From contig VGTI01000004.1 of assembly GCA_016874735.1 (NCBI GenBank), positions 1 to 64,000 of the forward strand: a stretch of DNA of 64,000 nt, read 5' to 3'. Positions 50,896 to 57,443 of this stretch are shown one piece after another. Source of the DNA: Deltaproteobacteria bacterium (GTDB lineage Bacteria > Bdellovibrionota_B > Oligoflexia > Oligoflexales > CAIYRB01). The translations under genes and the position numbers were made by a program. The first letter of the stretch is position 1. Each line of letters begins with the position of its first letter. Below the pieces are notes generated by a model that saw only the letters and a list, made by a program, of their open reading frames with translations, was not told the DNA's origin and did no database searches.

Positions 50896-51234
50896 TCACT
50901 TCCAGGTCTTGCCTGTCAGAATCTTAAAGTCTGCCTTCATATCGGCGTCTGAGTACTCGGACTTTTCGAAAGCCTGCATGCTGCTGCCGATTCCATTGCG
51001 AATTGCCGATTCCCACGCTGATTGCGCTTTTGTACTACCCTTTAGCGCAGAGGCTCCTTGCTTAGAGCTCCCATCCTTACCGTGGCATCCGCCGCACTGA
51101 CCTACGTATGCCGTCGATAGGGTCGAAGCCGACGGGCTGGTGGGAGCAGGGCTCGGGGATGACGTCGATGCCGAACTACAGCCTCCTAGCACGAAAATCA
51201 CGAAGAGATAGGTACCCGTAAATCGCATTGGCAT
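50896..51234 (-). CDS. Monoheme cytochrome c lipoprotein
   Basis: 112 residues from the ATG at 51234 (AAGGAAG upstream); the upstream in-frame extension has no signal. The lipobox is VLGGC, then a Ser/Pro-rich linker. One heme motif CGGCH and a distal Met in SSMQAF fit a class I cytochrome c of the small cbb3/soluble type. It would carry electrons in the periplasm, divergent from the conduit operon. Promoter signals of both directions share the gap 51235-51440. Confidence 0.88.
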   Translation of the reverse strand: MPMRFTGTYLFVIFVLGGCSSASTSSPSPAPTSPSASTLSTAYVGQCGGCHGKDGSSKQGASALKGSTKAQSAWESAIRNGIGSSMQAFEKSEYSDADMKADFKILTGKTWK

Positions 51235-51373
51235 GGTTGGTCTTCCTTTCCGGAATTCTACAGGGACGGTGCCGAACGCGCAGTCCCACTGAATCAGTCT
51301 GGGTATCGGCAGATGTGGGACAAATATTGAGGTGGCGTTGATGATTTTGGAATTTTTAGCCATCACAACGATT

Positions 51374-51440: not shown

Positions 51441-52226
51441 TTGAATAGTCGTACCTATGTAGCAATTTGGTTCACCATGCTAGCCCTGCTCGCAGGCAGC
51501 TGGCGCTGGCTCAATGCGGCCTTCGGCGATACCTTGCGCTATTGGCTCGGGTGGGGTGGGTTTGGCATCATTTGCATGACCAATCTCTACCTGCTACGCA
51601 AACGGTTACCTGTGCTCAAAAACGTCGGGCGCACGGCTGGGTGGCTCGATTTCCATATCCTTTGTGGATTAGTCGGGCCGAGTTTGATCGTTTTTCACTC
51701 CAATTTTAAGGTTGGGGGACTGGTAGCCATTAGCTTTTGGAGCATGATGATCAGCGCCGCTAGTGGCGTCGTGGGACGTTATTTCTACACGCAGCTACTC
51801 CAGCAAAGAGGCAGTCTGAAGAGAGATCTCAAGCGGTACGATGACGGCTTCCTGAAACTAAATACGATGGCACCTAAAATTTATACGACGGCGGCACTTG
51901 CGCACGCAAAGCATTCCGCTGTCCGTTTGGCATTCGGTGGTCATGAGATCGAAGACGTGCCGCAAAATCCGATCGTAGTTTTGGCTTACTCGATTCTAGG
52001 TGACATCCAGTTTTATACCAAACCCATAGCTGTCCCAGCCGAAACGTCTCGCGCAGTTCATCGTAAGTTTAAAGAGTACGGCATCATGCAACGCAAGTTG
52101 CTACTGCTCGATACATACAAACGATTGATGGGTTATTGGCACACCTTCCATGTCCCCTTTGCTGTTTTCATGTATGTGGTCGCTGTCATTCACATTATCG
52201 CTGAGCTTCTGTTTCGCGTTAAATAA
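51441..52226 (+). CDS. Polytopic membrane protein, probable di-heme b cytochrome
   Basis: 261 residues from a TTG start (GGGTGAT upstream). About five membrane helices near residues 5-22, 35-52, 68-90, 93-116 and 232-258. His72 and His86 in one helix and His237 and His251 in another are each 14 residues apart, the usual geometry for bis-His ligation of two stacked b hemes (ferric reductase and cytochrome b561 type). A loop of about 110 residues separates helices 4 and 5. It would pass electrons across the inner membrane between the oxidoreductase and periplasmic cytochromes. Heme content is predicted, not proven. Confidence 0.7.
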   Translation: MNSRTYVAIWFTMLALLAGSWRWLNAAFGDTLRYWLGWGGFGIICMTNLYLLRKRLPVLKNVGRTAGWLDFHILCGLVGPSLIVFHSNFKVGGLVAISFWSMMISAASGVVGRYFYTQLLQQRGSLKRDLKRYDDGFLKLNTMAPKIYTTAALAHAKHSAVRLAFGGHEIEDVPQNPIVVLAYSILGDIQFYTKPIAVPAETSRAVHRKFKEYGIMQRKLLLLDTYKRLMGYWHTFHVPFAVFMYVVAVIHIIAELLFRVK

Positions 52227-52231
52227 CGAAC

Positions 52232-53632
52232 TTGTCGCAACATCACGGAGATCTGCACAATTTGGAATTAACGACATGGTCTTACCTCATCTCCGACTAT
52301 TTTAGTGTGATTGCCGCCTTAATTTTGGTTCTCATGATGGTGCTCACGTACCGTCACACCAAAGCTAAACAATCTCAAGCTAGGGCCACTCTGGATGAAG
52401 CCAAATCCAAAAATCTAGCTGAGCCCTTCTCGCTGCACCCGAAAATCGACCCTAATCTATGTGCTGGTTGTGGCGCCTGCGTTCGTGCCTGCCCTGAAGG
52501 AGAAATTCTTCGACTAGTTAACAATCGCGCCGCTTTAGTCTCACCTACCAAATGTGTGGGCCACGGTGAATGCGAGGCTGCTTGCCCTTTTGATGCTATT
52601 AAGCTCGTTTTTGGGACAAAAACACGCGGCAAGGAAATCCCGCGCATCACTAGCAACTATGAAACAAATATATCGGGCCTTTATATCGCGGGCGAGCTGG
52701 GTGGAATGGGTCTCATTCGTAATGCGGTGCGTCAGGGTCGCAAAGCCGTAGAGCATGCATCTGCTCAGCTTCAACTCAGTCCCGATAAGTCCCCAGCTGA
52801 CTATGACCTTGTCATCGTCGGTGCAGGTCCGGCTGGCATTGCCGCTGCACTAGCGGCCAAGGCTCGCGGTCTGAACTATGTATGCTTGGAGCAGGATCAT
52901 TACGGTGGAACTATCGCAAATTTTCCAAGACAAAAAATCATCATGTCTCAACCTGCCGAGCTTCCCATAGTCGGACAGATGAAATTTCCACGCCATAAGG
53001 TCAGCAAAGAAGAATTAATCGCTCGATGGGAGATGATCCGTTCTGAGCAGGGTCTAGTCATTAAGGAGCATACAAAATTTCTGAATCTGATCAAGAGGGA
53101 GCCCAACTTTGAACTACAAACCTCAGATGGAGTGCTGACATCAAGGCGAGTAGTCCTTGCCACCGGCGTGCGTGGCAGTCCGCGTAAACTTGGCGTACCT
53201 GGGGAATCGCTTTCCAAAGTAACTTATAACCTCATCGAACCCGAGCAGTATCACGGGCGACATATCGCGGTCGTCGGCAGCGGAAACTCTGCTGCTGAGG
53301 CTGTGGATATGCTGTGTAAAAACAGTCTAGCCAATACCGTCTCCATGCTGGCTGTCACCAGTGGCTTCGACCGGTGTAACGAATCAAACGAACACCATGT
53401 GCGCCAGGCTGCAGCCGCGGGTCGCGTGAAGCTCTACTTCGACACAAAGGTTGAGGCGATTCGTGAGGGTTATGTGGATCTTTTAGTCAATGGTCAACGA
53501 CAAACCCTAAAAAATGACTATATTTTCATTTTCATCGGTGCGGAGTTGCAAACCGCTTTTTTTAACCAATTAGGGATTCTAGTGGATAAAAAATTTGGCG
53601 AGCCAATAAGTCGCCATCCGAGTCGCGCATGA
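52232..53632 (+). CDS. Membrane-anchored ferredoxin/FAD-NAD(P) oxidoreductase
   Basis: 466 residues, TTG start. One membrane helix (residues 19-40), then two ferredoxin-type clusters: C77-x2-C80-x2-C83-x3-C87P, and C108-x5-C114-x3-C118P in which the second Cys position is His111. Residues 190-460 form a thioredoxin-reductase-like flavin domain with GAGPAGIAAALAA for FAD and GSGNSAAEAVDML for NAD(P). The redox CxxC of true thioredoxin reductase is absent, so it likely moves electrons between NAD(P)H, FAD and FeS clusters. Its stop overlaps the next start (ATGA). Confidence 0.85.
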   Translation: MSQHHGDLHNLELTTWSYLISDYFSVIAALILVLMMVLTYRHTKAKQSQARATLDEAKSKNLAEPFSLHPKIDPNLCAGCGACVRACPEGEILRLVNNRAALVSPTKCVGHGECEAACPFDAIKLVFGTKTRGKEIPRITSNYETNISGLYIAGELGGMGLIRNAVRQGRKAVEHASAQLQLSPDKSPADYDLVIVGAGPAGIAAALAAKARGLNYVCLEQDHYGGTIANFPRQKIIMSQPAELPIVGQMKFPRHKVSKEELIARWEMIRSEQGLVIKEHTKFLNLIKREPNFELQTSDGVLTSRRVVLATGVRGSPRKLGVPGESLSKVTYNLIEPEQYHGRHIAVVGSGNSAAEAVDMLCKNSLANTVSMLAVTSGFDRCNESNEHHVRQAAAAGRVKLYFDTKVEAIREGYVDLLVNGQRQTLKNDYIFIFIGAELQTAFFNQLGILVDKKFGEPISRHPSRA

Positions 53633-54027
53633 GCAGAGTTACTTATTTGACAGCACATTTTGTGATCTTGGTCGCAACTATCTATAGCCTAGCTGGATGT
53701 GGCTTTAGTAAACCTAAAGTTAGCAACGCTGATTGGATGTCACCACGCTTCGATCATGCTCGATTTAGCGAGACTTGCGCCACCTGCCACGAAAGTGATC
53801 GCCCTTCACCAGTTTACAAGACTGCCCATGGAAACGGCCTGGACTGCGTCTCCTGCCATCGCTACACGACGGATAAGACGTGGGGTTCCTATCTGCAGTA
53901 TTCCCACTCACCAGCCCCCAAAAGCTGTACTTTTTGCCATGGTTCCATGCGCCCAGCACCGCCGCACACGCAGGAGGGTGACTGCGTAAACTGCCACAAG
54001 TTCCCTAACTGGAGGTCCGAGGCATAA
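53629..54027 (+). CDS. Tetraheme cytochrome c lipoprotein
   Basis: 132 residues. The lipobox is LAGC (Cys24). Four heme motifs (CATCH, CVSCH, CTFCH, CVNCH) are spaced about 16-24 residues apart, with other His residues as likely distal ligands. It would sit in the periplasm attached to a membrane and link inner-membrane donors to the conduit. ATGA overlap with the oxidoreductase and TAATG overlap with the beta-barrel gene mark a compact operon. Confidence 0.92.
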   Translation: MSRVTYLTAHFVILVATIYSLAGCGFSKPKVSNADWMSPRFDHARFSETCATCHESDRPSPVYKTAHGNGLDCVSCHRYTTDKTWGSYLQYSHSPAPKSCTFCHGSMRPAPPHTQEGDCVNCHKFPNWRSEA

Positions 54028-55376
54028 TGCACTGTCGGACCATCACTAAACTGATAATCGCTGCCTTTAGCATGAATCTTTGGGCGGCGGACGCCTTAGC
54101 GTATGACTATCACGGCTATCTATTGGGTGGTGGGTATATCGCTCGGGAACAATTTACCGCCGAAACGGCTGGTCTGACAAACAATGATCGCGCCGTTGTA
54201 TCATCCCGCCTTACATTAGATGTGACAAAGATCTCTAGCCAACAGTATCAGCTATTTATCGACATCCGGGATCAACATGACTTCTTTGATAAGGTTGATG
54301 CCGAAAGGCTTGAGTTGCGTGGTCGTAACTCCTTGCGTCTGCGCCAATTAAATCTAAGCGATCCCGGCCACTCACATAAATACTTCTGGACCATCGGCCG
54401 TTTTTTACCAGGTGCTAACAATGTTGTTTTCAACGATGGTATCGAATCCGGTTTGCGCCTTAACCCAAACCATCGTGTCGGTGTTTTTGCCGGTTATAAG
54501 CCAAGAATTACCGATGAACCAGTCGCTGATATAGGGTCGGATCTATATCAGATTGGTGGCTATCACATTTATGAACTAGAGGGTGAGTCTTGGGATGAAG
54601 GCAAATATATCGCTAATTTTCTGATTTCAGGTCCGGAGTTTGCAAACGACCAAGGGACCGTCACCAATACCTGGATCAATCAGAGCCTTCTACATTTTGG
54701 TCCAAGACACAGAGCAGGTTCTTATCTCAACGTTTCAGGTCAAGATTCCCCGCAACTTGAAGAGGGGCGCCTAGAGTGGGACGAACGCTTTAATACTAAG
54801 CTCTCTGCTCGGATTAGTGCGTCGCATCTCGACCTACGCGCTTACCGTCACCAAAGGGACATACTGGAGCCGCTACCTGCGAGCCCCTATTCCCAGGCGA
54901 AGGGTTTAATTCAGTACCGTATGAACGATCAGGCCAGACTCGAGGGCACGCTCATACTTGGGCGGCGGACGATCGACTACTTAGACAAGCAAGAACTAAC
55001 GCTGGGCGGCACTTTGACACGCTTTGCCACAGAGCATGCGCAGATCAGCGGGTACATCGGGACTAGACGCGGCTTTATTAGTCGCGATTTATTTATGAAT
55101 TCCGTATTCAACTACTTTGCCACCCGATGGATGAGTGATGTATCACTGCGATTGACGCGTCAAAATCGTTATAATGGCATCGTCCTAAATCAATTGATTA
55201 TTAGTAGTAATTTAGGTTTTTATTTGTCAAAGCGGATTCTAGTCTCGGCTGGTGGGGAACTTGCCGCCGATGAAAACAACAGAATCGCCAGCGGACTCCT
55301 CACGATTGGCTACCGATTCGGCACGCGAGAATTCACGCCTCTGCGCGACGTCGCGCCACCGAACGCGAGGTATTAA
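54027..55376 (+). CDS. Outer-membrane beta-barrel protein of the cytochrome operon
   Basis: 449 residues with a signal peptide ending near ALA-YDY. The rest alternates short amphipathic strands and turns (LLGGGYIAREQF, SRLTLDVTKIS, YFWTIGRFLPG, and a final GLLTIGYRFG-like strand), consistent with 18-22 strands; there are no cysteines after the signal peptide, so no heme is bound. It may sheath a multiheme cytochrome as MtrB does in porin-cytochrome complexes, but I see no MtrB-type CxxC motif and the similarity is only structural. Confidence 0.75.
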   Translation: MHCRTITKLIIAAFSMNLWAADALAYDYHGYLLGGGYIAREQFTAETAGLTNNDRAVVSSRLTLDVTKISSQQYQLFIDIRDQHDFFDKVDAERLELRGRNSLRLRQLNLSDPGHSHKYFWTIGRFLPGANNVVFNDGIESGLRLNPNHRVGVFAGYKPRITDEPVADIGSDLYQIGGYHIYELEGESWDEGKYIANFLISGPEFANDQGTVTNTWINQSLLHFGPRHRAGSYLNVSGQDSPQLEEGRLEWDERFNTKLSARISASHLDLRAYRHQRDILEPLPASPYSQAKGLIQYRMNDQARLEGTLILGRRTIDYLDKQELTLGGTLTRFATEHAQISGYIGTRRGFISRDLFMNSVFNYFATRWMSDVSLRLTRQNRYNGIVLNQLIISSNLGFYLSKRILVSAGGELAADENNRIASGLLTIGYRFGTREFTPLRDVAPPNARY

Positions 55377-57443
55377 ATGCATTTTTCAAAAATTATCGGG
55401 ATACTGAGCATCATTGTTTTTGCATCACCAATTACTTTGGCTGCATCAAATTCAAAATCCTCAAAAAACAGTCAGGGGATTTTAAACAAATTGCTTGCCC
55501 CTGGCCCACTCTCCGCGCCCCACAAGGATCTCGAACACGCAAGCTGCCTGAGCTGTCACGCAGCGGCCAATGGGGTGCCAGACAAAAAGTGCCTTGACTG
55601 CCACAAGGACATCCGCAGGTCGATCGAGAAACCAAAATCCTTTCATAAACTGACTCAAAAACCCTGCTTAAGCTGTCATAGCGAGCATAAAGGTAGAGAC
55701 TATGATTCCGCGATCATAGACAAGCTTACATTTGATCACAGTAAGACTGGCTCGCCACTATCAAAACCGCATGCCAAGCTTGCCTGTGAGGAGTGTCACA
55801 AAAACAAGCGCACCGATAAGGCACTACGTCCTGAAGATACGCATTATTTCGGACCAACGCCCAGCTGTAACAGCTGCCACAATAAAGACGACCCACATCA
55901 GTTTACGGGCAAGTTTCAATCTACAGACTGTAGCCAATGCCACCGCGACGATTCGTGGAAAGTCAACGGGATATACGACAGTATCAAACCCAACAAATTG
56001 CCGCCTCCCCCGCATTTTTTCCACAATATTGAGACTAAATACCGAGTCGATGGTAAGCATCTAGATGTAAGGTGCAACGAGTGTCACGTAAAGGTTGATC
56101 CTAGTGACACTAGAGGCAATGCTACTCGTCAATATTCATGGCCAGATTTAAATCAAAAAACATGCGAAAGCTGTCACAAGAATCCGCATATAGGTAAATT
56201 CCCACCCACTCTGATGAATCGCAAATGTAATGAATGCCATATCACCAGTAGTTGGACTAAACTGCCGCAGTTAGAGAAGAACTTTGACCACAATAATCTC
56301 ACTAGGTTTGAACTTACCGGACGTCATCAGGACATCACCTGCGCCGCGTGTCACCTGCGCGATGGTCGTGACGTTTACAAATTTCAAAATGCATCAAGTG
56401 GATTTTGCACTAGCTGCCACAAGAATATTCACTCCGATCAGTTTCGCCCCGACTACCGAAGTGAAGCGTGTTTAACATGTCACGACACAACTAGTTTTAC
56501 CAAGCTCAAGCCCTTCAATCACGATACGGAGACCCATTTCCGACTCACTGGCGACCACCTGCGGATCAAGAATCAATGCACCAAGTGCCACACCCCAACA
56601 TCTCGTATTTTATCGGAAAAACCACGTAAATTTGCGGGAAAATTTATTTTTGCCAATCGCGAAAATGGTTACTGTACCGAGTGTCATACCAACGTGCATC
56701 TTGATCAGTTCCATCAAAAATATCGGGAACAGGCATGTTCACAGTGCCATACCACTGACACCTTCCTAACCCGGCTTCCTTTTGATCATGCGAGTACCGG
56801 TTACACAATTACAGGCAAGCATGCAAATCTGGAATGCCGCGAATGCCATAAGCCCACTTCAGTGAAATTCCCTTCGCCTTTACCCCGATACAAAAGTCAA
56901 TTTATGTTCCCGGACCTTGCCAATCGCAATTGCGCCACGTGCCATAAGGATCCACATAATGGTAAGCTCGGAAGCCGCTGTATAAACTGCCACTCCGAGC
57001 AACACGCATGGTCATCGATCGATGATTTTCATAAAAATTATCTATTGGTGGGCGCGCATAATCTACTGAGCTGCGAGCAATGCCACGGACCCGACAATCA
57101 TCGCCGATTAACAGGAGCCAGCGAACGCTGTGTTTTCTGCCACAAAAAGGATGACCATCATAACGGCGGGCTACCCGAGTGCGCTCAATGTCATACGCAG
57201 CAAAATTGGCAAATTCTGAATTTCTCGCATTCTTTGACTCAATTCCCCTTAACGGGCGCCCATCGTAGTGCAACGTGCAATGCCTGCCACAAAAGAGGGA
57301 TATACGAGGGTACCCCGTACGATTGTCAAAGCTGTCACGCCAGGGATGCGCAAGGAGTGAGCTTCCCCAACCATGCGCTTGCTGGGTTCGAGGATTGTGG
57401 CAGTTGCCACAATCCATTCTCATTTAAATCAGGTCGCCGTTAG
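55377..57443 (+). CDS. Exported 24-heme c-type cytochrome
   Basis: 688 residues with a Sec signal peptide ending near LAA-SNS. I count 24 CxxCH motifs spread over the mature protein. A repeated module recurs at least six times: an F-[DNHS]-H segment, 5-6 residues, a G-x-H, then a CxxCH; several others follow a CHK-x-x-H-x-x-[QG]-F pattern, whose His residues look like distal ligands. No transmembrane or adhesion domain is seen. It starts one base after the barrel gene stop. A length and heme count this high point to a long electron wire, probably outside the cell or spanning the periplasm. Confidence 0.93.
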   Translation: MHFSKIIGILSIIVFASPITLAASNSKSSKNSQGILNKLLAPGPLSAPHKDLEHASCLSCHAAANGVPDKKCLDCHKDIRRSIEKPKSFHKLTQKPCLSCHSEHKGRDYDSAIIDKLTFDHSKTGSPLSKPHAKLACEECHKNKRTDKALRPEDTHYFGPTPSCNSCHNKDDPHQFTGKFQSTDCSQCHRDDSWKVNGIYDSIKPNKLPPPPHFFHNIETKYRVDGKHLDVRCNECHVKVDPSDTRGNATRQYSWPDLNQKTCESCHKNPHIGKFPPTLMNRKCNECHITSSWTKLPQLEKNFDHNNLTRFELTGRHQDITCAACHLRDGRDVYKFQNASSGFCTSCHKNIHSDQFRPDYRSEACLTCHDTTSFTKLKPFNHDTETHFRLTGDHLRIKNQCTKCHTPTSRILSEKPRKFAGKFIFANRENGYCTECHTNVHLDQFHQKYREQACSQCHTTDTFLTRLPFDHASTGYTITGKHANLECRECHKPTSVKFPSPLPRYKSQFMFPDLANRNCATCHKDPHNGKLGSRCINCHSEQHAWSSIDDFHKNYLLVGAHNLLSCEQCHGPDNHRRLTGASERCVFCHKKDDHHNGGLPECAQCHTQQNWQILNFSHSLTQFPLTGAHRSATCNACHKRGIYEGTPYDCQSCHARDAQGVSFPNHALAGFEDCGSCHNPFSFKSGRR

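Follow-up and report, generated by a model that had tools for sequence, protein, structure and literature searches.

A 24-heme cytochrome of triheme units and its operon in an Oligoflexales bacterium: a probable single-chain variant of the PCC3 conduit

A five-gene operon (51441-57443, +) was identified in a 64,000-nucleotide stretch of an Oligoflexales genome (GCA_016874735.1, contig VGTI01000004.1, positions 1 to 64,000; hereafter the window). It encodes an inner-membrane protein (IMP), a reductase, a tetraheme lipoprotein, a putative outer-membrane barrel and a cytochrome with 24 CxxCH motifs, with gene ends that touch or overlap. With a probability of roughly 0.65, the operon encodes a trans-envelope electron conduit that belongs to the PCC3 porin-cytochrome type as a single-chain variant. 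PCC3 conduits were described by He et al. 2017 (PMC5566968) and have been proposed in the literature as a bridge by which electrons pass the full width of the periplasm in a single step, the question touched here.

Heme motifs, triheme units and candidate ligands

The cytochrome gene (55377..57443, +) starts with ATG and encodes 688 aa with a signal peptide and matches to the Pfam families Cytochrome_C7 and Cytochrom_c3_2. A previous reading of the sequence alone had counted 24 CxxCH motifs in these 688 residues; direct recount of the frame gave exactly 24, against 0.28 expected from composition alone, while the other five frames contained 0, 0, 0, 0 and 2 motifs and abundant stops. The genome also encodes cytochrome c assembly genes, and the protein would be loaded with heme at 24 sites. 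Its residue-to-heme ratio is 28.7 (PCC3 range 22-39; PMC5566968). The load is large, as the sequence-only reading had held, but not extreme, since the same genome encodes a 36-heme paralogue and up to 85 hemes have been reported for one protein (PMC5566968).

Motif spacing repeats every three hemes (C1, 15-32 residues, C2, 16-25, C3, 31-48, next C1), and the repeat, read before as a one-heme module, is instead a triheme, FxH...GxH...CxxCH...CxxCHxxxH...CxxCH, present in eight copies of ~68-96 residues each. The phrase of FxH, GxH and CxxCH, ascribed earlier to at least six repeats, was indeed seen in units 3-8 (in unit 7 the spacer is lacking, giving FH); FDH and PH occur in unit 2, and the first unit is more divergent from the triheme consensus. 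When units were matched by position across 16 homologues, each triheme unit had three conserved histidines outside the CxxCH motifs, except that unit A has four and that one unit F histidine lies one residue off in some homologues; the full-length alignment agreed. Each heme thus has a candidate distal ligand, and the pattern fits bis-His ligation throughout. The conserved placement of distal-ligand histidines that had been proposed is supported by this conservation, and eight PCC3-type periplasmic-type proteins likewise have three conserved histidines per triheme. Pairwise identity among the eight units of the 24-heme protein is only 22-44%, so the duplications are old.

Units were compared one by one among homologues, which gave one consistent order of slots, A B C D E F G H I J. 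On this map the 24-heme protein (all units on the + strand) begins with unit A (hemes 1-3, 55467..55706), an N-terminal cap whose counterpart is the first unit of PCC3-type periplasmic cytochromes, followed by B (hemes 4-6, 55707..55994) and E (hemes 7-9, 55995..56261), just before which the relatives' C and D are missing and the junction step is 48 residues. Next come F (hemes 10-12, 56262..56498), G (hemes 13-15, 56499..56756; a single copy here, two or three in relatives, by slot map and unit tree), H (hemes 16-18, 56757..56993) and I (hemes 19-21, 56994..57197). The chain closes with the C-terminal unit J (hemes 22-24, 57198..57440), the slot that PCC3-type extracellular cytochromes match best with their first unit.

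Length series among relatives

A scan of the genome contigs returned four loci only, and distant relatives were therefore sought through a wider genome search. Matches were obtained in 13 of 43 genomes of the order (6/6 of the same genus plus seven from one other family), and 58 genomes of the phylum yielded no further match above threshold. Complete homologues have 24, 27, 33 or 36 hemes, arranged as ABEFGHIJ (24), ABDEFGHIJ (27), ABCDEF with two G and HIJ (33) and ABCDEF with three G and HIJ (36). Length differences are whole trihemes and lie in the middle only, both ends being constant across homologues; the wire seems to change its length in whole three-heme steps between fixed ends. Expansion by module duplication, as first suggested, is supported by the one-to-one match of units across homologues and by one, two or three copies in slot G, whose copies show the highest within-protein unit similarity (up to 59-62%), but the 24-heme protein is not an expanded form: it is without units C and D of its 33- and 36-heme relatives. 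In trees of the reductase and of the barrel the 24- and 27-heme forms group together, and a tree with PCC3-type loci as outgroup gave no order among the 24/27, 33 and 36 groups. Because unit D is present in the 27-heme sister group and absent only in the 24-heme clade, its loss in this clade is the simplest reading. The step before unit E, 48 residues in the 24-heme protein and 33-34 in relatives, may be the scar of a unit loss.

The 36-heme paralogue lies in a second cluster of the same genome (G000:C2, L025:5453-11673, - strand) together with a reductase, a tetraheme and a barrel gene of its own. This cluster contains no IMP gene, and the whole genome has one IMP only. The family forms a natural length series of 24, 27, 33 and 36 hemes, with 24 and 36 occurring in one cell and the ends unchanged throughout, and so allows a direct comparison of wire length with periplasm width and transfer rate.

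Partner proteins and known conduits

The operon is conserved within the genus and in a second family. Its first gene (51441..52226, +) encodes the IMP, 261 aa with two predicted b hemes, which was without a family match in Pfam and NCBIfam and carries the signature given for PCC3/PCC4 IMPs, two WX3HX13H motifs and SGXXG (PMC5566968); W68-x3-H72-x13-H86, W233-x3-H237-x13-H251 and SGxxG are invariant in 13 aligned homologues. He et al. noted that the HX13H pairs of such IMPs resemble those of ferric reductases and NADPH oxidases (PMC5566968). The operon shares with these enzymes two HX13H pairs for two b hemes beside an FAD/NAD(P) protein, and differs from them in an IMP without Pfam match, a reductase of YpdA/TrxR type and the separation of the two parts into two genes.

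The reductase (52232..53632, +; 466 aa; Pfam matches Fer4 and Pyr_redox) has an N-terminal hydrophobic segment as membrane anchor, GxGxxG and GxGxxA motifs and two Fe-S-type motifs, and family searches assigned it a YpdA/TrxR-type fold combined with Fe-S sites. At the second Fe-S-type site the sequence is C-x2-H-x2-C-x3-CP, its His being invariant in 27/27 sequences (52232-53632 and 26 homologues); at the first site the second Cys is retained in the family of the 24-heme locus and is mostly Ser in outgroups. Fe-S ligation in this protein is possibly unusual.

The third gene (53629..54027, +; 132 aa) encodes a tetraheme c-type cytochrome with four CxxCH, a class III cytochrome Pfam match and a probable lipoprotein signal (LAGC); it is absent from some homologous clusters. 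The fourth (54027..55376, +; 449 aa) is a putative outer-membrane beta-barrel, judged by its signal peptide, strand alternation and position: a barrel-like gene lies directly upstream of the cytochrome in the homologous clusters examined. Family-averaged strand alternation reached z = 4.0, and the single sequence gave 2.7 (MtoB-like control, 2.5; non-barrels, about 0). Pfam and other family models returned no match, nor did the MtrB-type family; a hit of the barrel profile on phage portal proteins (E 0.04) was judged to be chance, and structure prediction from two sequences had a mean pLDDT of 27. A small gene for a one-heme cytochrome c (50896-51366, -) adjoins the operon, and its position is kept in those 24- and 27-heme loci of the genus that have their neighbourhood in the data.

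For comparison, ten PCC3-type loci were examined, assigned to PCC3 by gene content and not by name; in the order of a Rhodoferax MAG, 20 of 399 genomes had matches. Most of the ten comprise an IMP, a periplasmic-type cytochrome with 24 or 27 hemes, another cytochrome of 10-62 motifs and a barrel-like gene of large size; for Gallionellaceae, PCC3 periplasmic subunits with 21, 24 or 27 hemes are on record (PMC10734462). Alignment of the 24-heme family with eight PCC3-type periplasmic proteins gave an hhalign probability of 100 (E 1.6e-90), and cap unit A was specific to their first unit (63 bits against at most 13 for the other PCC3 unit profiles). The Sphingobium herbicidovorans plasmid pMSHV (L076, 5986-6708) encodes, beside a 2Fe-2S protein, a short protein without a name that is related to the wire's N-terminal part and is carried on conjugative plasmids of sphingomonads. 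A reductase homologue adjoins nine of the ten PCC3-type loci, whereas published PCC3 descriptions (PMC5566968 among them), in the parts available, name four genes and no reductase; this conserved protein is a candidate cytoplasmic electron partner for PCC3-type systems.

PCC3 and the operon thus share a homologous triheme periplasmic cytochrome, the IMP signature, a low residue-to-heme ratio and a reductase beside the loci. They differ in that PCC3 has a separate extracellular cytochrome, whereas in the operon the C-terminal unit of the wire resembles the first unit of that protein; in addition, the barrel is 449 aa in the operon and about 720-840 aa in PCC3, and the operon has an extra tetraheme lipoprotein and its cytochrome family forms with 33 and 36 hemes. 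No separate extracellular multiheme cytochrome is encoded in the operon, and a PCC3-type extracellular query found none elsewhere in the genome: its best match was 57216-57425, inside unit J, followed by the 36-heme paralogue and no others. When the first units of ten PCC3-type extracellular cytochromes were combined into a profile, slot J scored 59.5 bits and no other slot more than 36, and in the reverse comparison J scored 45-62 bits on these first units and the next slot 20-31. J is also similar to some middle units of PCC3-type periplasmic cytochromes, so that the preference of the extracellular first unit for J is not matched by an exclusive one in return.

Joined chains were found in other genomes. 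In the Deltaproteobacteria MAG OFTM298 one chain of at least 43 motifs, cut off at the contig edge, combines a cap and middle units with a J-like unit and repeats of extracellular type, and in a Myxococcales MAG a chain of 29 motifs ends in I- and J-like units and adjoins a barrel-like gene; both split and joined forms therefore exist. Heme sites of the form CxxxCH occur in L023:7899-10301 and L022:7926-11330, and with one CxxxCH counted the Myxococcales protein has 30 motifs, a multiple of three.

With PCC4 (He et al. 2017) the operon has in common the IMP signature, a tetraheme cytochrome beside a redox gene, a porin (putative in the operon) and no extracellular cytochrome, but PCC4 periplasmic cytochromes have 4, 5 and 10 hemes and those of the operon 4 and 24, which places it outside PCC4. 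MtrAB, MtoAB and PioAB have a cytochrome wire adjoining a barrel, as is proposed for the operon, with 10 hemes as against 24. Assignment to the DmsE/MtrA decaheme family (TIGR03508) was rejected at 64.3 bits against a curated cut-off of 192.2, and OmcA/MtrC, HmcA, ExtN and ExtO identities were all far under their curated cut-offs. The 24-heme protein alone had no match in the PDB; the family profile had a sole match, the high-molecular-weight cytochrome c 2e84 (5.6e-6). AlphaFold2 modelling of the cytochrome with a four-sequence alignment gave a mean pLDDT of 33. A literature search on Oligoflexales found nothing.

Proposed electron path and its alternatives

The 24-heme protein is most likely a trans-envelope conduit running outward. 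Cytoplasmic NAD(P)H, or another low-potential donor, would reduce the membrane-anchored FAD/Fe-S reductase, and electrons would cross the inner membrane via the two predicted IMP b hemes, by the route known from ferric reductases and NADPH oxidases. From there they would enter the wire at cap unit A, possibly via the tetraheme lipoprotein, and run along the eight triheme units of a presumably linear fold to unit J, which, in or at the barrel, would pass them to an outside acceptor. This corresponds to the orientation of MtrA, N end to the periplasm and C end outside. Scaled from MtrA (10 hemes, about 80 angstrom), 24 hemes would extrapolate to about 19 nm and 36 to about 29 nm, a length that could span the periplasm. 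In evolution, the wire would have been lengthened or shortened by whole middle trihemes with both contact ends kept. If the protein combines a periplasmic wire with the first unit of an extracellular cytochrome, one polypeptide could conduct from the inner-membrane reductase through the periplasm and into or through the barrel; the complete model, with three-heme length quanta between fixed ends and a split, NADPH-oxidase-like feed from NAD(P)H and not from the quinone pool, is offered tentatively and is more doubtful than the assignment to the PCC3 type.

The same genes could serve electron uptake, with the conduit running inward: an outside donor, for example Fe(II) or a mineral, would give electrons that end in the quinone pool or on NAD(P)+. 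Multiheme wires are able to run in both directions. Electrons moving inward to NAD(P)+ would, however, oppose the membrane potential and require a low-potential donor. PCC3 is found in iron oxidizers, for which such a direction has been suggested, and its IMPs have been proposed to meet the quinone pool (PMC5566968), yet the PCC3 genes of Sideroxydans ES-1 are, according to published data, down-regulated on Fe(II); uptake is considered unlikely. Against the outward conduit stand the weak evidence for the barrel identity of the 449-aa protein, the similarity of J to PCC3-type periplasmic middle units, the lack of an IMP in the 36-heme cluster, and the 24- and 36-heme forms in one cell, which misfit a length set by the periplasm alone. 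Another alternative is a periplasmic store or buffer, whose hemes would keep charge for soluble periplasmic reductases with no reach to the outside. The putative status of the barrel and the difference in heme-protein size within one cell would suit it, and He et al. list pairs of multiheme cytochrome and IMP without porin that probably do not reach outside (PMC5566968). A barrel-like gene nevertheless directly precedes the cytochrome in the homologous clusters examined and unit J resembles the extracellular subunit, which makes a store improbable, somewhat more so than uptake. Least probable by far is a secreted protein that polymerises outside the cell as a filament or surface nanowire: such multiheme filaments are published for other bacteria, but the homology here is to PCC3-type periplasmic cytochromes and no PDB filament cytochrome was matched by the family profile.

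A named strain whose genome is public, Emticicia oligotrophica DSM 17448, carries a relative of the operon on its plasmid pEMTOL02 (NC_018749.1, L075), where genes for an IMP, an NAD(P)-binding reductase, a 23-CxxCH cytochrome, a further cytochrome and, downstream, a 538-aa protein follow one another in a single operon. It differs from the operon in this second cytochrome, which has 40 CxxCH and repeated J-like units. Its genes are annotated as cytochrome c3 family and hypothetical proteins only.
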